Shown here in pieces: positions 46,113 to 62,390 of a stretch of 64,000 bases of DNA. This DNA is from Miscanthus floridulus (taxonomy: Eukaryota > Streptophyta > Magnoliopsida > Poales > Poaceae). The notes under the pieces were generated by a model. It saw only the letters and a program-made list of their open reading frames with translations. It did not search any database and was not told the DNA's origin. The stretch lies in assembly GCF_019320115.1 (NCBI RefSeq), contig NC_089582.1:117884657-117948656 (forward strand), read 5' to 3'. Positions within the stretch are counted from its first letter, which is position 1, and the number at the start of each line of letters is the position of its first letter. The translations under genes were made by a program, and so were the position numbers.

Positions 46113-46693
46113 CGCACGGTGCGGGAGGTCAGCGGCACCAGTTGCCCGACACAAACTCGCACCAACTATGGCGAGTGGTCGGTAAGTATGAAGGTTAAGC
46201 TCAGAGCCCGACGGCTCTAGAATGCTGTTGACAAGGGCACCGACAACGAAAAAGACGATATGTCAGCGTTAGAGGCTATCCTCGCTGCTGTGCCAGTGGA
46301 GTACAGGAAGCCGTTGGAGGCGAAAAGCTCAGCTAAGGAGGCGTGGGAGGCCATTGCGGCGATGTGCATCGAGTCTGACCGCGCAAAGAAGACGGCCCAG
46401 CTTCTGAAGCAGGAGTACGCTAACCTCAAGTTCAAGGATGGTGAAGCGGTGCAGGATTTCTTCCTCCGCCTACAGACGCTCATCAGCAAGCTGAGGAGCC
46501 ACAGCATCATCATCGATGAAGAAGAGGCGGTCTCCAAATACCTCCAATCTATGCCGACGAAGTACATCCAGATTGCTCTCACCATAGAGACGATGTTGGA
46601 CTTATCCACCCTCACCGTTGAGGATGTGACAGGCCGTCTACGGGCGGTGGACGAGCGCATGGAGCAGACCACAACAACGAAGGACAACGGCAA
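46113..46693 (+). pseudogene. Copia gag, first part
   Basis: Frame: TRTNYGEWSVSMKVKLRA (the Y-x-x-W core of copia gag), a TAG in place of Trp near 46216, then MSALEAILAAVPVEY, AKEAWEAIAAMCIESD, LLKQEYANLKFKDGEAVQDF, LRLQTLISKLRSHSIIIDEE and YLQSMPTKYIQIALTIET. This is a typical UBN2-type gag. It ends at KDNG where the Tekay element entered. The same frame continues at 61151 (LLLIEEEWATRRN) after removal of the insertion and one GGCAA copy. Confidence 0.9.
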
Positions 46694-49600
46694 TGTAACA
46701 CCTCGGTGTTAAACATGCATTACCATTTCATCCCATGAGCATAATCATCATCACCTCATGCATAAGCATCATTCATGCATTTCATTTCGAAAGAAATGAA
46801 GTATCATTTCATGTGGTGCTTGAATTGATTGAAATTCATTTATGTTTAAAACAATATGAAATGCCATGCTCATGTTTGGATGCCATGATTTCTTGTTTTG
46901 ATCACTAAGATATCTTATAAATATTTAGGATACAATTTGGAGCAAAGTTCATGTTTAAATTTTTGCCAAATTTTGCCTTTAAAAATAATTCTTCAAAATT
47001 AGGGTTTTGAATTAATATTGATTTTTATTTTGTAATTCAAAATCGATTTGGAATTTGACTTTGGTCATAAAAGCAAAGTTGTAGATCTTGAAAAATGGAA
47101 CAACTTTCATTTTTACACCAACTTTTGAAACTGCTTTGAAATAGTTCAAAAATTCGTTTGAATGAAAAAGCAATTGAAAATAATTTGAAAAAGATCATTT
47201 CACCTAAGTGGGCCTCACGCCTCGCTTCCGGCCCAGCCGCGCAGACCGGCCCGGCCTGCCCCGCGCCTCGCCCGCTCGGCAGCGCGTCGTGCCCGACCGG
47301 CGTCAGGCCGCAGCCGCCGCGTGGCCGCCGAACGCCGGTGATGGCGTACGGGTGGCACCCCGGTGGGCCCCGCCACTCCACGCGCTCGCCTTCACTTGCC
47401 CGACCACGCCGCGCTCCTCCCCACTCCTCCACTTCGCTCTCTCATCCGCCAGCGCAAGCAGCAGCTGCAGCGCTCGCCTCTGCCATCGCCCGCACCAGCA
47501 GCTCGCCGGAGTTGGCCGTTCCGGCTGCTCTAGTTCGTCTGAGCTATCTCCATCTTGCCCTGAGCATTGCCTCTTCCTCGCGCACCTCGTGCTCGCCTCG
47601 GTAAGCTATGGGAAGCTCCCCTTCCCCGGGAATCCCTCGCCGGAGTACTCCGCTCCGTGGACCTCACCTCTCCGTCCTTCTTCTCGCTCTCCCTTCACGC
47701 GCACGAGCACCGCCCGAGCTCGGTGAAGCTCCCACGCCCCATCTCACGCCCCTTCTCGGCCGGAGATGGTCGGCCGACGGTGAGCCGCACCACCGCACCG
47801 CCATGGCCGCTGGCCAGCTCGCTCTCGAGCTCCTCCAGCCCTGCTACTTGCACTAACGTGTCCGCCTTGTCAAAGTGGTCACGTTGGTGGTGACCTCGTC
47901 GCCGGCCACCTTGCCGACGGCGAGCTCACGCCGGTCAGCGCGGCCTCCTCTGCCTTAGGGGCTGGCAGGTGGGGCCGGCTAACCTGCGGGGGCCACTGTC
48001 AGCCATAGGGGTGCACGCCTGGGTAGAAATCCGGGTGGATCTAGCAGTTTTGAACATGGATTTTCAGAAAGAATTTAAGAAATGATTTTCAGATTTCCAT
48101 TTAGATGCTTTGGGAATTTATAACTTGCTCAAAATGGCTCCAAATTTGTTGAAATTTTTTTTGTTGTGTTCCTTATCACCAGATCTACATGATAAAAATA
48201 TTGCATGTCATTTCTGAGATACTTTAATGTAGAGCTTTATTTAATTCTTGATATTGCTGATATCTTGTGAAATGTGTAGTAAATTCTATATGTATCAGAA
48301 AAATATGATTCCAAATTGGGTAGTCTATTCTTGAGATGTACTTTCTGTGAAAAATATATGTCATGCAGGTTATGTGGAAAAATATGGCTAGGTAGGTTAT
48401 GTGTATTAATTACTGATTTCTTATAAAATTGCTAGGGCTAAAAATATGAATAATACATGTAGGTGAAACTTTTTGTACAGTGATTGTATGCTCTGTAGAT
48501 CATGGGAAAAATACCAAATTTGTTGTTTGACACTTTTCGTAGTACAAAGTATTTTCATGCTCAATTATCCACCATAGCTTGTCATTTTTGTGTAGGCTGT
48601 TATACTTATCTAACTGCAATGAAAATTTTATGGTAGTCTACTTAGAGTAGTACTATGCTACTGTAATTTTCTGAAATTTATATGAGCACCAGAAATATAT
48701 GTTGCTGTTGTAGCCCTAGTTTAAAATGAAATAAACAAATCTTCTTTAACGCATGATTAGTTAATAATGTTTGCTTTGGTGTATCTTTGAAGCATCTTAG
48801 ATTGCTGTGGTGACTTGGCATGTTAGTACCGTGGTTGTAGTAGTTGTATAGTAGTACATGTTCTTGGATGATGTTGGCTACCTTGTAGAAGTGCTTTACT
48901 TCTACTATGCACAATACAGTTGAACATATTCATCTACATTTCATGTATCATGATCATTACATGTCATCTCTTCGATGCACCTATGCATTAGCACTCATAC
49001 ATCTGCATCATATAGGATCACAGGAGGAGTTGCTAGCAGTAGTTCAGGAAGAGCAGACCAGGACAGATCCACAAAAAGTCCAGGCACAGGAGGTGCCAGA
49101 GGAAAAGAGTCGGGAGAGGACTTGCCCGAGTGCGTGGATCATCAACCTAGTTCGTTCGAACGAGGCAAGCCCCGAAGCATTCTAAGTCTCCTACTTTATA
49201 AAAGCAATTCTTTCTATATATACGAGTTTATAGATTGTTGCATTAAGTGGTAGGAGTTGATTGAAACCGTTGATGCATTTATTACTATCCTTACCTACCT
49301 TACTACCTTGTTACCCTGTTAGGTCAGGATCGAATAACTGCTTAGCCTTGCTTAGACCGGTAGCAATCGGTGATAATCCGATCACCTACATTATAGGTGG
49401 TTACTAGAAGAATTTAGCTATGGAAAGAATGATATCCTGGAATTAACCATGTGTGATGGATAATTGGAGACCAGACGGAAAAAGTTGGAGGCAACCAGAC
49501 AGGGTTCTGAGGTGCTGTTAGTTTCCGTCTGTGTCAATTAAGGACCGATCATTGCTTGTTCCTCTTGTCATGTTGAACGCATGCCTCACATTTAGCTAGC

Positions 49601-50412
49601 CAAATAAAGTACCTTTCGACCGCGAAGCTAGTGACACTATTTGAGCCGGGATAAACCTGGATTGGCAAACTGGTGCTGAAGGGCGTATGATGGGGACGCG
49701 AAGAGTGAGCCCAAGGTGCGTCCTGACAGTCGGGCGGTCCCTGGGTAGTGCGGTCCCGGCAGTTATCCCGCGGCTACTTGGAAAGGTTATAATAAAGATG
49801 ACGCAAAGTACTTAGAATGGTTTCTTCATGATAGCTTAGGCTTTTCGTAAACAAGTCAGCTAGCCTACTAAAGAAAGCCTTGCATAATCCTTGGTGTCAT
49901 TTTATTTTGGTTTAAGATGGGTAAGTCTAGCTGAGTACCTTCTCGTACTCAGGGCGTTGTTCCCATTGTTGTTGTAGATGGTCAAATGTACTACGGCTGT
50001 TGCATTAAATGCCTATACCCAGCGATGGGTGACAACTAGGATCAAGGGCAATGGTCACTCCGTATCTCTTATCTGATGCTTTTATTGGAGATGACTACTC
50101 ACTGGCACTGTATTGGAATTAAAAGTGTGTGTGTGTGACTTGAAAACTATTTGCTTCCGCTCTTTCAGATTAGACCTAGTTTGTAATAACTTTATATTCT
50201 AAACTCTGATGTATCCTACTGTCATTGTGAACTTTATGTAACATGTGACGGTACTTGCTAAACTTGTATGATCTTGGTTTGTATGTCGATTGGTTTGAAA
50301 TCCTTCGTGGTTTCACGGACTACCGGGTTATACGGGCTTAAGTTTGCTAAATTATCTACTTCGACAGAAGATTTCCTTGCTTAATCTTATATAATTGGTC
50401 GGTTCTGTTACA
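46694..50412 (+). repeat. 5' LTR of the Tekay chromovirus
   Basis: 3719 bp. It contains a GC-rich block at about 47210-47990 in otherwise AT-rich sequence. Relative to the 3' LTR it lacks about 262 bp (60255-60516 of the partner) and 21 bp (near 58094-58114). A TG run lies near 50126-50137. Confidence 0.92.
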
Positions 50413-50414
50413 GC

Positions 50415-50427
50415 TGGCATCAGAGCA
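50415..50427 (+). other. Primer-binding site of the Tekay element
   Basis: TGGCATCAGAGCA, two bases after the LTR end. It is the tRNA-Met type site TGGTATCAGAGC with one change. Confidence 0.85.
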
Positions 50428-50714: not shown

Positions 50715-51247
50715 GTAAGTGAGAGTTGTGAGAGCATGATCGGATACACTGCTGATCTAGAGAAGTGCTTATATGAAGCTAGATTATTTACATGCCATAC
50801 GCGTGTTTGTATGAAGGTATCCAATGTGTGGGGAAATTCTGTCCTGTGGTGATGATGCCGTTGATAGGACGATGGTTCGGGTAGTTGCTACCGTTGTACG
50901 TGTATCTGGGGATGCGTGTAGAATGAGTAGATTACTTTACTGCTTTCGTGCATATTTTTCATACTGTCAGGGTTTGGGCTAAAGTGGATCTTTTGTAGGT
51001 ACATAACAGCGCTATCGTATAGTACGTATTAGCTTTGTTATCAGAGACCGTTGTATGCCACCGTCTATGCCGCTAGCAATTGTTGTTTTTCCTAAGTTTG
51101 TGAGAACGTACAGAACATGCATGCATCATGTTGTTACATATCATTCATGGCATATTGTTCCTCCTCTTATAAGTTGATTATCTCATTTTGATAAAAATGA
51201 CAACTTAACCTTGTTCTCACGTGAGTAATAAAACAAATTTGCTACAG
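50715..51247 (+). other. Candidate 5' leader intron before the H3-like frame
   Basis: The donor context TCG-GTAAGTGAG at 50715 matches the plant 5' splice consensus very well. TTTGCTACAG ends at 51247, directly before the ATG of the accessory frame. A second acceptor-like AAATATGCAG ends at 52673, directly before the gag ATG. Splicing from the same donor to either acceptor would place each ATG first. This is inferred from sequence only. Confidence 0.45.
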
Positions 51248-52303
51248 ATGGCACTTACAAAGCAGACCGCTCGCAAGTCCACCGGAGGCAGAGCTCCCCG
51301 CCATCAGCTTGCTCCATGTACCCGTCAGCGCCACAAGTTTCTTAGAGAGTTTGGGATGCCTACACTCTTGTGGAGGGTGCTCAGCTATGTAGGTTATCCT
51401 GATGGAATGGAGCCCCATTACTTCTAGACAAATGAGCAATTGGGAGAAGGTCTCTTGGTTACTGTGGAGGCCGTTGTTTGTCCTCGAGGTGACAGTTATG
51501 AGTGGACTAGTTGGCATTATGAGTCAACTGGTAGGACCGCTGAAGAAGCAGCTGACAGGGTAGCCTTTGGAATACTGAGGGATATCATGGATCGTTTTCC
51601 TCAAAAGTTGGCAGCCACTCTAGTTGGAGTCTTTCCGAGGGGCAACCCCTCCACTGACTCATGGCAGCAAGCAAGAGGAAGATCTATAGAGATTAGTGTA
51701 GTAGAAGGATAGAACAGTGATAGCCCAGCCATGAGCGCCATGTTTATAGTGATGAAGGCTTTCAATGGAGTAGAAGGTAGCCTAAGACATGTGTTTGGTG
51801 CTCTTGGTCATGCCCGCGATGACCGACGTCAGCTTCAGAGGGATCACGACGCCGAGATTGAGAGCCTCAATGCAGAGATGGCCCAGTTGACTTGTTAGAG
51901 GGATCAGGCGACCTAGAGGACTGGAGCCTATGAGGGAGATGTGCGTGCACTGAGAGAGTAGGTCGAGCGTCTGACCATCGCCAATAGGAACGTTGAGCGC
52001 ATGTTGATCCATGTGCTCCACCAGAGAAATGAAGCCTGGTCCGCAGAAGATGTTCTGAGAGCTCGACAGATTGAGCTGGAGCAGCAGCTAGCCAATGCAG
52101 AAGAGTACAATGACAACCTACATGAGGAGGTTCATCAGCTGAATAACCAACTCCACCCTTACGTTCTGCCTGGAGCCGCAGAGATGGATCTAGATGAGGA
52201 CGAGGATCCCGAAGAGCCTAAGGCACCAGCTAATGACGACGATGATGATGTAGATAGTGACGATGTTGACATCTCTGACCTAGACAGCGACCACGATGAG
52301 TAG
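51248..52303 (+). pseudogene. Accessory ORF of Tekay with a histone H3 tail-like N-terminus
   Basis: One frame of 351 codons plus final TAG, broken by five TAG stops (51425, 51710, 51896, 51914, 51959). After Met it reads ALTKQTARKSTGGRAPR, matching the H3 tail at 18 of 21 positions. K4, R8, K9, S10 and the GG are kept; R2 is Leu, K14 Arg and K18 His. The MA start would expose Ala as in H3. Next come LRRE-like basic residues and FGMPTLLWRVLSYVGYPDG. A middle part follows (YEWTSWHYESTGRTAEEAADRV) whose strand-strand-helix pattern recalls double-stranded RNA-binding domains, weakly. Then a Gln/Glu-rich helical region (EQQLANAEEYNDNLHEEVHQL) and an acidic tail (DLDEDEDPEEP, DDDDDVDSDDVDISD). The histone core fold is absent, so it is not a histone gene. 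Function unknown. Confidence 0.8.
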
Positions 52304-52673
52304 GCTAGTAGTTGTTGCGCTAGCTACTAGGGTTTCGTTTGCGATGACCTTTTGCATGGTTGACATGTTTGGCATGTACTCCTGAGTAGAAAGACTAAGA
52401 CCTTGATGTAATGTTGGAAAACTTGGATGTGTTTGTGGCGATATCTGAACGTCAAAAGTCCAGTGTATGTATGCTGGCAATTTGGTTGTATTGGACGCGA
52501 TGTGTGCGTTTCCGTAATCTAATTAGTCATGTTGTGTTAATTGGAATGGCTTATTGTGCCCCTGTTTTATTGTATGAAATTATTCTCTCCAGTGAATTTA
52601 GTATGGCATAATTTTTTATTCACTTGTAATTTCTACAACATCGCCTAATAATTACTGTTGTTGAAATATGCAG

Positions 52674-53826
52674 ATGCCGAACACTCGTCGTACTGTGTAT
52701 GTCGCAACTGAGGCAGGTGGTAGTGCCGTCGAGAATGAAAACCATGATCCACCACCACCGCCTCCTCCTCCACCATACACCGCGGAACAGTTCTTCGCAC
52801 AGTTCCTTGGAAGTCAACGCAACATGGAGGGCATGCAGCAGAATATGGAAGCTACATTGCGCCATATTGCTGACAACACCTGCCGTGGGTTAAACCTAGG
52901 TGGACATGAAGCGAATTAGCATAGCAGTTTTAAGGACTTTATGGACACCAGACCACTAATTTTTAAGGAAGCGGCAGAGCCCTTGGATGCAGAAGAGTGG
53001 ATAAACACCATGGAAGATAAGTTTTGTATTCTAAGGATGATAGAAGTACTAAAGACGGAGTATGCAGCTCATCAGCTGCAAGGCCCTGCAGGAATGTGGT
53101 GGAAGCACCACCGCACCACTTTTCCTCCCAATGCCCACATTACTTGGAGGGAATTCACTAAGGCCTTTCATGGAGTTTACATTCCCCCTGGTTTGACCGA
53201 AATGAAGTTTGGAGAATTTCTAGCACTGAACCAAGGCACCAAGACGATGACCCAGTATCTACATGCCTTCAATAATCTAAGTCGCTATGCCTCTGACATG
53301 GTGAATACCGATGCCAAAAAGATCGCTAGTTTCAAGAGAGGCCTGAATCCCAAGATGATGAAGCACGTGGGTACCAACACAAGAACTGGTTTCAATGACT
53401 TTGTTAGTGACTGCTTAAAGCAAGAAAAGAACAACAATGTTTATGCTACATCCAAGACTCGCAAGAGGGCTTTTGAGTCAGGTCCGTCCTAGCCAAGGGC
53501 CCTAATGGCAAATTGTTCTGCGTATCATCCGCCTACCCCTAGTGCAAGGTTTAGGTCACCCCAACGGAGGAATCAGAATGCCCAGCAACCTCAGAGGAAC
53601 TAGAAGCCATTTAAGATGGTGGTGCCACAAGCCAAGACTGGACAAGGCAGTTCATCTGGAGCTGCTACTCAAGTAAGAGGACCGTGTTTCAACCGCAATC
53701 AAACTGGGCACTTTGCAAAGTTTTGCCCATATCCCAAGAGGCAGCAGAATCAGTACCAAGCTCGTGTGCACCACACCACCATTGATGACATCCTAGAAGG
53801 AGAGCCCATGACAGCCGGTATGTTTT
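52674..53826 (+). pseudogene. Tekay gag
   Basis: Starts MPNTRRTVYVATEAGG at 52674, right after CAG; an ATG six bases earlier is in frame too. A Pro run (nine residues) is followed by the capsid: FKDFMDTRPLIFKEAAEP, AEEWINTMEDKFCI, AAHQLQGPAGMWW, ITWREFTKAFHGVYIPPGL, FGEFLALNQGTKTMTQYL. The zinc knuckle reads CFNRNQTGHFAKFC, in which the second Cys has become Arg. TAG stops lie at 52917, 53490 and 53601. The same frame runs on into protease, so gag and pol are one polyprotein. Confidence 0.9.
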
Positions 53827-54290: not shown

Positions 54291-55560
54291 CCTGACAGAG
54301 ATGTTGAGTTTGCCATTAAGTTAATCCCTGGAACACCACCGATCTCAAAAAGGCCTTATCGGATGCCTCCAAATGAATTAGCCAAGTTGAAGAAACAACT
54401 CCAAGATTTGTTGACTAAGGGTTTGATTCGCCCAAGTTCATCAGAATGGGGATGTCCCACACTATTCGTGAAGAAGAAGAAGGATAATTCCTTACGGATG
54501 TGCGTGGACTACCGGCCACTGAATGCGGTAACAATTAAAAACAAGTATCCTCTACCTCGGATTGATATCTTGTTTGATCAATTGTCCAAAGCCAAAGTGT
54601 TCTCCAAAATAGATTTGAGATCAGGGTACCATCAGATCAAGATTAGACCATAAGATATACCCAAAACAGCGTTCTCCACTAGATATGGTTTGTACGAGTA
54701 TCTTGTCATGTCCTTTGGTTTGACAAATGCTCCTACATACTTTATGTATCTGATGAATTCGGTCTTTATGCCGGAGTTGGATAAGTTTGTGATTGTGTTT
54801 ATTGATGACATTCTAGTGTACTTAGAGAATGAATAGGATCATGAAGAGCATCTAAGAATTGTTTTGACTAGACTCAGAGATCACCAGCTGTATGCTAAGT
54901 TTAGTAAATGTGAGTTCTGGCTGAAGATAGTTCCTTTTCTCGGTCATGTGCTATCTGAGAATGGAATCTCAGTGGATCCTAGTAAGGTACAAGAGGTTAT
55001 GGACTGGAAGGCACCAAGCACAGTTCATGAGGTTTAGAGTTTTCTTGGATTAGCCGGTTACTATCGTTGTTTTATATCAGACTTTTCGAAGATTGCCAAG
55101 CCAATGACAAGTTTGCTACAAAAGGATCATAAGTTCATTTGGACAGAGGAGTGTGAGGCAGCTTTCTGCACCTTGCAGAATTTGCTAACCACTGCTTCTG
55201 TTCTAGCGCAACCGGATATAGAGAAGCCGTTTGATGTGTTTTGCGATGCATCAAAGAATGGCTTAGGATGTGTTCTAATGCAAGATGGAAGGGTCATTGC
55301 TTATGCCTCACGTCAGTTGAGGAAGCATGAGGTTAACTATCCTACGCACGATTTAGAGCTTGCGGCTGTTGTGCATGCTCTAAAGATTTGGAGACACTAC
55401 TTGCTTGGGAATGTGTGCAATATCTTTACAGATCATAAGAGTCTCAAGTACATATTTACTCAGTCTAAGTTGAATATGCAACAAAGAAGATGGTTAGAGC
55501 TAATAAAGGATTATAATCTGAATGTGCACTATCATCCGAGAAAAGGCAAATGTAGTGGCA
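54291..55560 (+). pseudogene. Tekay reverse transcriptase and RNase H
   Basis: [19 protein letters not shown], then [13 protein letters not shown] and [36 protein letters not shown] gives the first catalytic Asp, [12 protein letters not shown] follows, and [11 protein letters not shown] is the active-site FIDD. Then [16 protein letters not shown] and the RNase [37 protein letters not shown] and [13 protein letters not shown] with its D, E, D residues. Stops: TAA 54651, TAG 54834, TAG 55035. A run of four A at 55541-55544 has one base too many and shifts the frame just before the ADALSRKS motif. Confidence 0.92.
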
Positions 55561-56900: not shown

Positions 56901-57132
56901 TCAGAGCATTCAGCTCAAGTCAGACTTGGAATACCGTGAGCAACCGGTTTGAGTTTTGGACACTAAGGACCGAGTCACTCGTAACAAAGTGGTGAGAACA
57001 TATAAGATATAGTGGAGTCATCACGATGATGGTGATGCGACGTGGGAAACAGAAGAATATCTGCAAAATGCTTATAATGATTTTTATAACAAATGGTTCG
57101 TAACTCAAAATCTCAGGACGAGATTCTTATAA
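56901..57132 (+). pseudogene. Tekay chromodomain-like C-terminus
   Basis: VLDTKDRVTRNKVVRTYKI, then WSHHDDGDATWETEEYLQ up to the TAA at 57130-57132. Chromovirus integrases end in a chromodomain thought to direct insertion to marked chromatin. The Tekay/Del type keeps the W...ATWE part but lacks part of the aromatic cage of cellular chromodomains. TGA at 56950 and TAG at 57010 lie inside. Confidence 0.8.
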
Positions 57133-57143: not shown

Positions 57144-60100
57144 TGTAACACCTCGGTGTTAAGCATGCATTACCATTCATCCCATGAGCATAATCATCAT
57201 CACCTCATGCATAAGCATCATTCATGCATTTCATTTCGAAAGAAATGAAGTATCATTTCATGTGGTGCTTGAATTGATTGAAATTCATTTATGTTTAAAA
57301 CAATATGAAATGCCATGCTCATGTTTGGATGCCATGATTTCTTGTTTTGATCACTAAGATATCTTATAAATATTTAGGATACAATTTGGAGCAAAGTTCA
57401 TGTTTAAATTTTTGCCAAATTTTGCCTTTAAAAATAATTCTTCAAAATTAGGGTTTTGAATTAATATTGATTTTTATTTTGTAATTCAAAATCGATTTGG
57501 AATTTGACTTTGGTCATAAAAGCAAAGTTGTAGATCTTGAAAAATGGAACAACTTTCATTTTTACACCAACTTTTGAAACTGCTTTGAAATAGTTCAAAA
57601 ATTCGTTTGAATGAAAAAGGAATTGAAAATAATTTGAAAAAGATCATTTCACCTAAGTGGGCCTCGCGCCTCGCTTCCAGCCCAGCCGCGCAGACCGGCC
57701 TGGCCTGCCCCATGCCTCGCCCGCTTGCCAGCGTGCCGCGCCTGACCGGTGTCAGGCCGCAGTCGCCGCGTGGCCATCGAACGCCGGCGACGCCGTACGG
57801 GTGGCACCCCGGTGGGCCCCGCCACTCCATGCGCTCGCCTTCACCTGCCCGACCGCGCCGCGCTCCTCCCCACTCCTCCACTTCGCTCTCTCATCCACCA
57901 GCGCAAGCAGCAGCTACAGCGCTCGCCTCCGCCACCGCCAGCACCAGCAGCTCGCCGGAGTTGGCCGTTCCGGCTACTCCAGTTCGCCTGAGCTATCTCC
58001 ATCTTGCCCTGAGCATCGCCTCCTCCTCGCGCACCTCGTGCTCACCTCGGTAAGCCATGGGTAGCTCCCCTTCCCTGGGAATCCCTCGTCGGAGTCGTGG
58101 TCGAGCTCGCCGGAGTACTCCGCTCCGTGGACCTCGCCCCTCCGTCCTTCTTCTCGCTCTCCCTTCATGCGCACGAGCACCGCCCGAGCTCGGTGATGCT
58201 CCCACGCCACATCTCACGCCCCTTCTCGGCCGGAGATGGCTGACCAACGGTGAGCCGCACCACCACGCCACAATGGCCGCTGGCCAGCTCGCTCTCGAGC
58301 TCCTCTGGCCCTATCGCTTGCACTAACATGTCCGCCTTGTCAAGGTGGTCACGTTGGTGGTGACCTCGTCGCCGGCCACCTCGTCGACGGCGAGCTCACG
58401 CCGGTCAGCGCAGCCTCCTCTGCCTCAGGGGCTAGTAGGTGGGGCCGACTGACCCACGAGGGCCACTGTCAGCCATAGGGGTGCACGCCTGGGTAGAAAT
58501 CCAGGTGGATCTAGCAGTTTTGACACATGGATTTTTAGAAAGAATTTAAGAAATGATTTTTAGATTTCTATTTAGATGCTTTGGGAATTTATAACTTGCT
58601 CAAAATGGCTCCAAATTTGTTGAAATAAATTTTGTTGTGTTCCTTGTCACCAGATCTACATGATAAAAATATTGCATGTCATTTTTGAGATACTTTAATG
58701 TAGAGCTTTATTTAATTCTTGATATTGCTGATATCTTATGAAATGTGTAGTAAATTATATATGTATCAGAAAAATATGATTCCAAATTGGGTAGTCTATT
58801 GTTGAGATGTACTTTCTGTGAAAAATATATGTCATGTAGGTTATGTGGAAAAATATGGCTAGGTAGGTTATGTGTATTAATTGCTGATTTCTTGTAAAAT
58901 TGCTAGGGCTAAAAATATGAATAATACATGTAGGTGAAACTTTTTTGTACAATGATTGTATGCTTTGTAGATCATGGGAAAAATACCAAATCTATTGTTT
59001 GACACTTTTTGTAGTACAAAGTATTTTCATGCTCAATTATCCACCATAGCTTGTTATTTTTGTGTAGGCTGTTATACTTATCTAATTGCAATGAAAATTT
59101 TATGGTAGTCTACTTAGAGTAGTACTATGCTACTGTAATTTTCTCAGATTTATATGAGCATCAGAAATATATGTTGCTGTTGTAGCCCTAGTTTAAAATG
59201 AAATAAACAAATCTTCTTTAACGCATGATTAGTTAATAATGTTTGATTTGGTGTATCTTTGAAGCATCTTTGATTACTGTGGTGACTTGGCATGTTAGTA
59301 CCATGGTTGTAGTAGTAGTATAGTAGTACATGTTCTTGGATGATGTTGGCTACCTTATAGAAGTGCTTTACTTCTACTATGCACAATACAGTTGAACATA
59401 TTCATCTACATTTCATGTATCATGATCATTACATGTCATCTCTTCGATGCACGTATGCATTAGCACTCATACATCTGCATCATATAGGATCGCAGGAGGA
59501 GTTGCTAGCAGTAGTTCAGGAAAAGCAGACCGGGATGGATCCACAAGAAGTCCAGGCATAGGAGGTGCCAGAGGAAGAGGAGTTGGGAGAGGACTTGCCC
59601 AAGTGTGTGGATCATCAACCTAGTTCGTTCGAACGAGGCAAGCCCCGAAGCATTCTAAGTCTTCTACTTTATAAAAGCAATTCTTTCTATATATATGAGT
59701 TTATATATTGTTGCATTAAGTGGTAGGAGTTGATTGAAACCGTTGATGCATTTATTACTATCCTTACCTACCTTACTACCTTGTTACCCTGTTAGGTCAG
59801 GATCGAATAACTGCTTAGCCTTGCTTAGACCGGTAGCAATCGGTGATAATCCGATCACCTACATTATAGGTGGTTACTGGAAGAATTTAGCTATGAAAAG
59901 AATGATATCCTGGAATTAACCATGTGTGATGGATAATTGGAGACCGGACGGAAAAAGTTGGAGGCAACCAGACAGGGTTCTGGGGTGCTGTTAGTTTTCA
60001 TCTGTGTCGATTAAGGACCGATCGTTGCTCGTCCCTCTTGTCATGTTGAACGCATGCCTCACATTTAGCTGGCCGAATAAAGTACCTTTCGACCGCGAAG

Positions 60101-61145
60101 CTAGTGACACTATTCGAGCCGGGATAAACCCGGATTGGTAGACTGGTACTAAAGGCGTATGACGGGGACACGAAGAGTGAGCCCAAGGTGCGTCCTGGCA
60201 GTCGGGCGGTCCTTGGGTAGTGCGGTCCCGGCAGTTATCCCGCGGTTACTTGGGAAGTGTCATTGGTGATCTAAGTGACCCTAACGGGGGAAGCATGGTT
60301 TGTGTGAGGAATAAATCACCAGCTGGTTAGGAATCGATTCCAATCGCCATCGCTCCTGGATAGTGAGCACTTGACTCGAGCTACGGCATCATAGTAATTA
60401 TTATGGAACAATGATGGTTATCTGGATAGTATGGGATATGCTAAATCTAAATTGGTAACTAAATGTTATTGGTTAATCAAGTGATTGCTATAGTACAGGT
60501 GCTTACCTAGATGGATAGGTTATAATAAAGATGACGCAAAGTACTTAAAATGGTTTCTTCATGATAGCTTAGGCTTTTCGCAAACAAGTCAGCTAGCCCA
60601 CTAAAGAAAGCCTTACATAATCCTTGGTGTCATTTTATTTTGGTTTAAGACGGATAAGTCTAGCTGAGTATCTTCTCGTACTCAGGACATTGTTCCTATT
60701 ATTGTTGCAGATGGTCAAATGCACTATGGCTATTGCATTAAATGCATGTACCCGGCGATGGGTGACAACTAGGATCAAGGGCAATGGTCACTCCGTATCT
60801 CTCATCTGATGCTTTTGTTGGAGATGACTACTTACTGGCACTGTATTGGAACTAAAAGTGTGTGTGTGTGACTTGAAAACTATTTGCTTCCGCTCTTTCA
60901 GATTGGACCTGGTTTGTAATAACTTTATATTCTAAACTCTGATATATCCTACTGTCATTGCGAACTTTATGTAACATATGATGGTACTTGCTAAACTTGT
61001 ATGATCTTGGTTTGTATGTCGATTGGTTTGAAATCCTTCGTGGTTTCACGGACTACCGGGTTATACGGGCTTAAGTTTGCTAAATTATCTGCTTCGGTGG
61101 AAAATTTCCTTACTTAATCTCGTATAATTGGTCGGTTCTGTTACA
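57144..61145 (+). repeat. 3' LTR of the Tekay chromovirus
   Basis: 4002 bp. It is homologous to 46694-50412 over its length, with many substitutions and two extra segments, at about 58094-58114 and 60255-60516. GGCAA follows at 61146. Confidence 0.92.
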
Positions 61146-61150
61146 GGCAA

Positions 61151-61640
61151 GCTGCTGCTGATAGAGGAGGAGTGGGCTACCCGGAGGAACTCTGGGGAAG
61201 CCTCCTCCAGCCGCGGTGGCGATGGCAAGCATCGCGGCAAGTCTTCTTCAGAGAAGAAGAAGAAGGTCGACCCCAACGTCTGCCGACACTGCGGGAAGAT
61301 GGGTCATTGGACAAAGGAGTGCCTAAATCGCAAGCAAGAGGAAAAGGTCGAGGCTCATCTAGCGTAGGCTGATGATGATGATGAGGCCACTCTTCTGATG
61401 GCGACGTTCTATGCACTGCACGACGTTGAGACCAAGGAGAAGGGAGAGGTGATGGCGGTGAAAGGGCCCGAGAACTCTCTAAAAGCTGTCTACCTTAACG
61501 AACCGCACGCACAAGTCCACCTCGGACGTGTGGGCGGCGAGCAGGAGCAGCGGTGGTACCTGGACTCTGGCGTCAGCAACCACATGATGGGCTCTAAGGC
61601 AGCCTTCTCCGAGCTCGACGATGACATGACCGGTAAGCTG
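61151..61640 (+). pseudogene. Copia gag end and protease start
   Basis: The frame continues from 46693: LLLIEEEWATRRNSGEASSS, then a Lys-rich linker, CRHCGKMGHWTKEC (CCHC zinc knuckle, complete), a TAG near 61366, ATLLMATFYALHDVE and WYLDSGVSNHMMGSKAAF, the copia protease start with the DSG active site. At about 61640 the sequence jumps to the late RT, so an internal deletion has removed the rest of protease, integrase and most of RT. Confidence 0.88.
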
Positions 61641-62390
61641 TTGGAGCGGAGTAGCATGGCTGAGTGCAAGCCGTGCGTGACTCTAATGGAGGAGCCGCTG
61701 AAGCTGACGAAGGCCAGTACTGCGGCGAAGGTAAATACAACACTCTACCAGAGCATCGTCGGTGGTTTACGCTACCTAATGCATATGAGGCTGGACATTG
61801 CGTTTATCGTGGGCTACGCCAGCCGCTTCATGGAGAATCCCCGAGAGGATCACTGGGCTGTGGTGAAACGGCTGCTGCGCTACATCAAGAGAGCGGTGGA
61901 TCAGGGGATCGTCTTCCCCAAGACCGACGAGAGTAGGCTGCAGCTCACTGTGTTCAGCGATGCAGACATGGCGGGGGAATTTGACGGACGACGGAGCACC
62001 TCTGGCATGCTTTTTTTTCCTCGGGTCAGCCCCAATCTCATGGCTGTCGCTGAAACAGAAGGTGGTGTCGCTGTCCACGTGCGAGGCAGAGTACGTGGCG
62101 GTGACCACAGCGGCGTGCCAAGCTATGTGGCTGAGCCGGTTGCTGGACGAGCTGACCGGTGTGGAAGCTCACCCACCAGCACTGATGGTGGACAACCAGC
62201 TCGCCATCGCCCTCGCGAAGAATCCAATTCTTTACGACCAGAGCAAGCACATCGACATCACGTTCCACTTTCTCAAGGACTTTATCGATGGAGGGCAGAT
62301 CGTCATCGAGTTCGTCGAAACTGATCGGCAACTCGTGGACGTCCTCACCAAGCCGCTCGGCCGCTGTGTGAACGCATGGCAGGGACAGGC
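61641..62390 (+). pseudogene. Copia RT C-terminus and RNase H
   Basis: LLERSSMAECKPCVTLME, LYQSIVGGLRYLMHMRLDIA, VGYASRFMENPREDHWAVVK and RLLRYIKRAVDQGIVF, then RNase H: LTVFSDADMAGEFDGRRSTS (D), CEAEYVAVTTAACQAMW (E), ALMVDNQLAIALAKNP (D), KHIDITFHFLKD and ETDRQLVDVLTKPLG. A run of eight T at about 62010-62017 moves the frame between the ...RSTSGML and the WLSLKQKVVSLST parts. It ends atypically after TKPLGR. Confidence 0.9.

Follow-up and report, generated by a model that had tools for sequence, protein, structure and literature searches.

A histone H3-like tail at the N-terminus of ORF0 in a grass Tekay-type retrotransposon, a candidate mimic of the H3K9 region

Why should a protein encoded by a retrotransposon begin as histone H3 begins? 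The question is raised by the window, the whole 64,000-nt stretch of Miscanthus floridulus DNA that was analysed, in which a 5′ accessory frame (ORF0; 51248..52303, + strand) begins MALTKQTARKSTGGRAPRHQLA. Its translation reads MALTKQTARKSTGGRAPRHQLAPCTRQRHKF and then runs on to an acidic end. The initial Met plus 21 residues (51248..51313, +) form the H3-like tail; of the residues that follow Met, 18 in 21 are identical to H3, the differences being R2L, K14R, and K18H. This count agrees with that of an earlier note on the same DNA, which had placed the tail correctly and ended it at 51310, one codon short. When the window was resampled 60 times with a first-order Markov model and read in six frames, the top tail match reached 7–10 of 21 residues, compared with 18 of 21 in the window itself; judged by this comparison, the likeness to H3 exceeds chance, as the note had also held. 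The likeness stops at residue 21. No match to the histone fold (PF00125) was found in three pieces of ORF0 or in the related proteins P0016, P0001, P0010, and P0012, and a 21-residue tail alone is not expected to give one.

The layout of the element that carries ORF0 fits a grass Tekay-type LTR retrotransposon, Tekay being the name used in the earlier note. The element is bounded by GGCAA target site duplications (46689..46693 and 61146..61150). The 5′ LTR (TGTAACA...TGTTACA; 46694..50412, +) is 3719 bp long and the 3′ LTR (57144..61145, +) is 4002 bp long, including about 255 bp absent from the 5′ LTR; over two aligned blocks (3116 and 634 columns) the pair shows 176 mismatches, corresponding to 94–95% identity there. 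The primer-site candidate TGGCATCAGAGC (50415..50426, +) is one base off what we take to be the plant initiator-tRNA-Met primer site. The Ty3/gypsy order of gag, protease, reverse transcriptase, RNase H, and integrase is present (PF03732, PF08284, PF00078, PF17917, and PF17921), with the gag part at 52674..53600 (+; PF03732, E 1.7e-18) and the reverse transcriptase at 54474..54950 (+; PF00078, E 4.7e-34), the aspartyl protease lying upstream of the latter. In the window copy, which is decayed, the integrase core (PF00665) fails to reach its cut-off (E 0.0022). The integrase had been said to end in a chromodomain; a PF00385 match does lie there (56971..57081, +), and it is weak (E 0.0078, below the Pfam cut-off). 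By eye, this chromodomain-like part was judged to be of type II, following the description in the available text of PMC3350952. An extra frame between the end of the 5′ LTR (50412) and the gag ATG (52674) is found here as in grass Tekay ORF0. A frame with a Ty1/copia-like reverse transcriptase stretch, recognized by eye (61398–62324), adjoins the right side of the element.

The window copy cannot make the full ORF0 protein, because the frame is broken by five in-frame TAG stops (51425, 51710, 51896, 51914, and 51959), which the earlier note had passed over. Stops in ORF0 are mostly TAG, in the window as well as in other long-form copies. Changes from CAG to TAG fit the loss of methylated C in CHG context, and the silencing mark itself may drive the decay.

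Is the tail peculiar to this copy? At least 40 DNA matches were scored, together with at least 123 protein-level matches of the window's long form and at least 150 of a related short form. Copies were drawn from the top of the score lists: 50 of the at least 123 listed long copies (L039–L088), eight from the DNA matches (L001–L008), and the best 30 of the at least 150 short copies (L009–L038), of which 21 are stop-free. Two of the 88 loci scored (L039 and L067) were dropped because their Met is out of place, leaving 86 (56 long and 30 short). K4, K9, G13, and L20 are each present in 86/86 copies, R14 and H18 each in 84/86, and R2 in 78/86, while Q5, T11, and Q19 mark the positions where the short form differs. 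Two of the three substitutions seen in the window, K14R and K18H, are thus features of the family; R2L, which had been listed as a trait of the tail, proved private to the window copy, since 48 of 56 long and 30 of 30 short copies retain R2. To avoid a choice based on the tail, the tail-less protein P0001 was used as a query, which gave 126 matches in the genome; 20 of these, chosen among those absent from the long-form list, were read upstream, and a tail was found in 17 of them (15–20 of 22 letters, Met included), the exceptions being L100, L104, and L114.

At the protein level, a first search returned 35 proteins and a profile search 191, of which the best 120 were listed. The tail is carried at 13 or more of 21 positions by 24 of 132 proteins, many of them short-form and closely alike, with Met directly before Ala1 in all 24. 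A1, A7, S10, G13, and L20 are kept in 24/24, K9 and H18 in 23/24 each, and K4 in 21/24; position 14 is Arg in 22, Cys in one, Gln in one, and never Lys. The replacement of the acetylation sites, which the earlier note had emphasized, therefore extends across the family, with lysine at position 14 in 2 of 86 copies and at position 18 in none of the 86, and at neither position in the 24 proteins. Reading of the alignments points to five tail-bearing subfamilies, namely the window's long form, the short form, P0089 (kin to P0010), P0086 (kin to P0012), and P0016 with P0051, the last three being represented by one or two tail-bearing proteins each. The guess that the tail might be family-wide is borne out by its presence in other copies and in several subfamilies. 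K4 and the ARKS surroundings of K9 had both been described as kept; K9 is indeed nearly constant, but K4 is replaced by Arg in two of the five subfamilies (P0016 and P0051; P0089), making K9 the steadier feature. The best genome matches of P0010 and P0016 are 63% and 51% identical, respectively, so these proteins probably come from other plants. Scans of viral contigs (with P0001 and P0025) and of genome contigs (with P0010), whose reach is limited to close relatives, returned no copies. A protein search with the tail alone (residues 1–42) returned no candidate, a negative that is not trusted, as P0035 shares several five-residue words with the query.

These residue counts bear on the most serious alternative, that the basic tail is only a nuclear localization or nucleic-acid-binding segment whose H3 likeness was inherited from a captured exon and kept for its charge. 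The tail is basic, and 5′ accessory proteins of Poaceae Tekay elements are reported as predicted nuclear in the available text of PMC11728184. Charge would not, however, explain why the uncharged A1, A7, S10, G13, and L20 are retained in all 24 proteins while two lysines are lost, and we regard this explanation as unlikely.

An H3-like tail would be exposed as an N-terminus if translation began at its Met, and the leader offers a way for this to happen. A splice-donor-like GTAAGT lies in the leader at 50715..50720 (+), an acceptor-like CAG directly precedes the ORF0 ATG (51245..51247, +), and a second acceptor-like CAG directly precedes the gag ATG (52671..52673, +). Of the copies examined, 30 of 36 long and 30 of 30 short ones carry the leader GTAAGT within the expected interval, and no other 20-column stretch of the leader is as well conserved between the long and short forms as the one that starts with GTAAGTG at -533 (0.87). 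Before the ORF0 ATG, 49 of the 56 long copies have CAG, six TAG, and one CAA, and of the 30 short copies 26 have CAG and four TAG; the sequence TTGCTACAG at this place is common to both forms, and the three preceding windows are conserved at 0.24–0.35. Before the gag ATG, CAG is present in 26 and TAG in two of 36 long copies, and CAG in 24 and TAG in six of 30 short copies. We infer that a single leader may be alternatively spliced to ORF0 or to gag. Given the conservation of these splice-like sites, the tail would be the N-terminus of the protein. A second leader block conserved between long and short forms (0.83–0.85) lies at 51094–51133, inside the predicted intron and roughly 154 to 115 nt ahead of the ORF0 ATG.

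Behind the tail, ORF0 is predicted to contain a double-stranded RNA-binding domain (dsRBD)-like fold, a coiled coil, and an acidic end. The dsRBD-like domain, with an alpha-beta-beta-beta-alpha order, is present in the predicted structure of P0016; by alignment to this model it corresponds to residues about 36–121 of the window frame (51353..51610, +), and the coiled coil approximately to 51725..52153 (+). The acidic C-terminal stretch (52181..52300, +) was delimited by eye. Pfam searches of ORF0 gave nothing above cut-off, and no dsRBD match was found in four ORF0 proteins at E 0.1. The likeness to plant dsRNA-binding domains of the DRB and DCL kind (DRB7.2 and DCL4) lies in the predicted fold; ORF0 differs from them in the missing Pfam match, in a best Foldseek E of just 0.017, and in the absence of the domain from the short form. 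Because the short form does without it, the domain appears unneeded for the role of the tail there, and a mechanism combining the tail with dsRNA cannot be general. The model shows the tail itself as disordered, with a pLDDT of about 32 over residues 1–10, and the tail would thus be accessible. One annotated Miscanthus floridulus gene at NCBI (P0024) fuses the SH3-like end of an integrase to the ORF0 coiled coil; gene prediction has probably merged two parts of an element here.

Where could such a tail have come from? Four intron-containing H3 genes of the host were read, and in each the first coding exon is 72 nt long, running from Met to K23 and followed by GT (AAG|GT), the splicing of these genes being deduced from their sequence. 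The exon ATG is directly preceded by atgcag in L091 and L092 and by gactag in L089 and L090, where the acceptor is less clear. The L091 gene carries T31, Y41, H87, and L90, which we take to mark it as H3.3. The longest exact nucleotide run shared by the ORF0 tail with these exons has a median of 14 (long form) or 15 (short form) and a maximum of 23, compared with a median of 8 for three intronless H3 genes; tail pS is 0.57 against H3.3 and 0.67–0.71 against intronless H3, a modest preference. The start of the ORF0 tail coincides with the start of the H3.3 exon (AG|ATG), and its end falls two codons short of the exon end. The AG directly before the ATG, the exon end at K23, and runs of 14–15 nt rather than 8 make exon capture the likely origin of the tail, the source being the first coding exon of an H3.3 gene of the host. 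Short ARKS or ARKT mimics are known in viruses and in host proteins, and the tail could in principle have arisen by independent convergence on such a motif; a match of 18–19 of 21 residues from Met-Ala1 onwards, the AG|ATG border, and the H3.3-like codons make this quite improbable.

Whether the captured segment has been kept for its peptide was addressed in a codon alignment of 55 long and 29 short copies, two of the 86 being left out. Between the long and short forms, pS is 0.677 and pN 0.139 in the tail, compared with a pS of 0.658 and a pN of 0.350 in the other shared codons, in a comparison whose silent divergence is saturated and whose pairs are not independent. A pN as low as that of the tail was reached by 13 of 20000 random sets of 21 codons from the rest, and by 29 of 142 contiguous 21-codon windows; the five windows with the lowest pN start at alignment columns 274–285, behind the globular part. 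The lower pN of the tail, at equal pS between old subfamilies, speaks for selection acting on the peptide. Codons 7–10 and 12 of the tail (51269–51280 and 51284–51286) are nearly unchanged at silent sites (pS 0.039), so that the peptide cannot be named as the cause of constraint at these positions; codons 7–10 have the second lowest pS among 158 four-codon windows and are therefore not outstanding. In the remaining tail codons, silent change has reached saturation (pS 0.88) and pN is 0.17.

Within subfamilies, the picture is different in that neither pairwise ratios nor shared variants, with few changes to count, revealed added constraint in the tail. In the long form, the pairwise ratio stands at 0.48 for tail codons and 0.40 for the others, and in the short form at 0.37 and 0.20, respectively. 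For variants shared by at least three copies, where numbers are small, the ratios are 0.51 versus 0.29 (long) and 0.41 versus 0.18 (short). Variants shared by at least five copies are expected to be older than insertion for the most part; they give 0.23 versus 0.27 (long) and 0.21 versus 0.22 (short), on eight and three tail changes. The case for selection thus comes from the old divergence of the long and short forms, according to which the tail may have been kept by selection on the peptide. The earlier note had proposed a check for neutral evolution of the tail codons; they are non-neutral between the two subfamilies, but within subfamilies their ratio is not clearly lower than that of the rest. 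If the tail were a passive, functionless remnant of the captured exon, decay after insertion (one to nine stops in each of at least 123 long-form copies) and the ordinary constraint within subfamilies would be expected, yet its retention by several subfamilies and a between-subfamily pN far under pS and under that of the rest of the protein render this very unlikely. It is very improbable that the likeness acts at the RNA level, with small RNAs of the element also touching H3.3 transcripts and the nucleotide match kept instead of the peptide, for although the silent invariance of codons 7–10 and 12 and the longest exact runs to H3.3 would suit such a role, typical runs are shorter than a small RNA of 21–24 nt and the remaining tail codons are silent-saturated with a low pN.

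The reading that we favour, with moderate confidence, is that ORF0 of this grass Tekay element carries a tail taken from an H3.3 exon and kept as an H3-tail mimic aimed at H3K9 silencing or heterochromatin factors. Splicing from the leader donor to CAG|ATG, as the conserved sites suggest, would start ORF0 at the tail Met. Met-Ala ends are normally trimmed, and trimming would give ORF0 a free Ala1, as in H3. The coiled coil would make the tail multivalent, and the tail could then dock on host H3K9 factors, either writers of the SUVH4/KYP kind or readers of the SHH1, CMT3, and HP1-like kind. Once docked, it might occupy these factors and soften the silencing of the element (a decoy), or tether element complexes to heterochromatin; the decoy is slightly favoured, and the data fit both. 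Since Arg14 and His18 would bar acetylation and ubiquitylation at both sites, it is the heterochromatic state that the mimic would represent. The steady surroundings of K9, the probable free N-terminus, the loss of K14 and K18, and the coiled coil together fit a protein that would present itself to H3K9 writers and readers as heterochromatic H3.

A more tentative extension is also possible, in which the captured H3.3 exon serves as a lasting pseudo-histone tail that is written by plant H3K9 methyltransferases and read by heterochromatin readers, perhaps including the element's own type II chromodomain. If so, the element would carry both a mark-bearing tail and its own reader. A partner for the type II chromodomain is reported as not found in the available text of PMC3350952, and the tail is a candidate for what plant type II chromodomains bind. 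More broadly, if old branches of the family have preserved a histone-tail mimic, ORF0 would have a concrete and testable part in the conflict of silencing with transposition, and a mobile element would have acquired an exon from a histone gene. Grass genomes contain Tekay elements in abundance.

The ORF0 frame itself is known. As far as the available text of PMC3485330 goes, a 5′ accessory ORF occurs in the grass Tekay elements Retrosat2, RIRE3, RIRE8, and FRetro3, and its function is described as unknown or, on the strength of homology models, surmised to be enzymatic; the window element resembles these in the site of ORF0 between the 5′ LTR and gag, in LTRs longer than 3 kb, and in its grass host. 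A dsRBD-like likeness (TM 0.35–0.37) is reported for maize and sorghum accessory proteins in the accessible part of PMC11728184. The word 'histone' is absent from the main text of both papers in the form available, and a literature search, judged by titles and the beginnings of abstracts, found no description of an H3 tail in a retrotransposon. The H3 tail in ORF0 is apparently newly described, and we rate it a strong candidate for experiment. The probable H3.3 exon origin, the splice-site layout, and the dsRBD-like domain with its absence from one subfamily are further additions to the earlier note.

With host H3.3, ORF0 shares most of residues 1–21, several core codons, and the AG|ATG border, while differing in the end of the likeness at residue 21, the lack of a histone-fold match, and the replacement of K14 and K18. 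Influenza NS1 (ARSK) and G9a (ARKT) are said to be histone mimics. The hepatitis delta antigen is also presented as one in the available text of PMC6972770. In ORF0, as in these proteins, a histone motif appears copied into a non-histone protein; unlike them, ORF0 reproduces 18–19 of 21 residues from Ala1 onwards, does so at the N-terminus, probably by exon capture, and does so in a retrotransposon.
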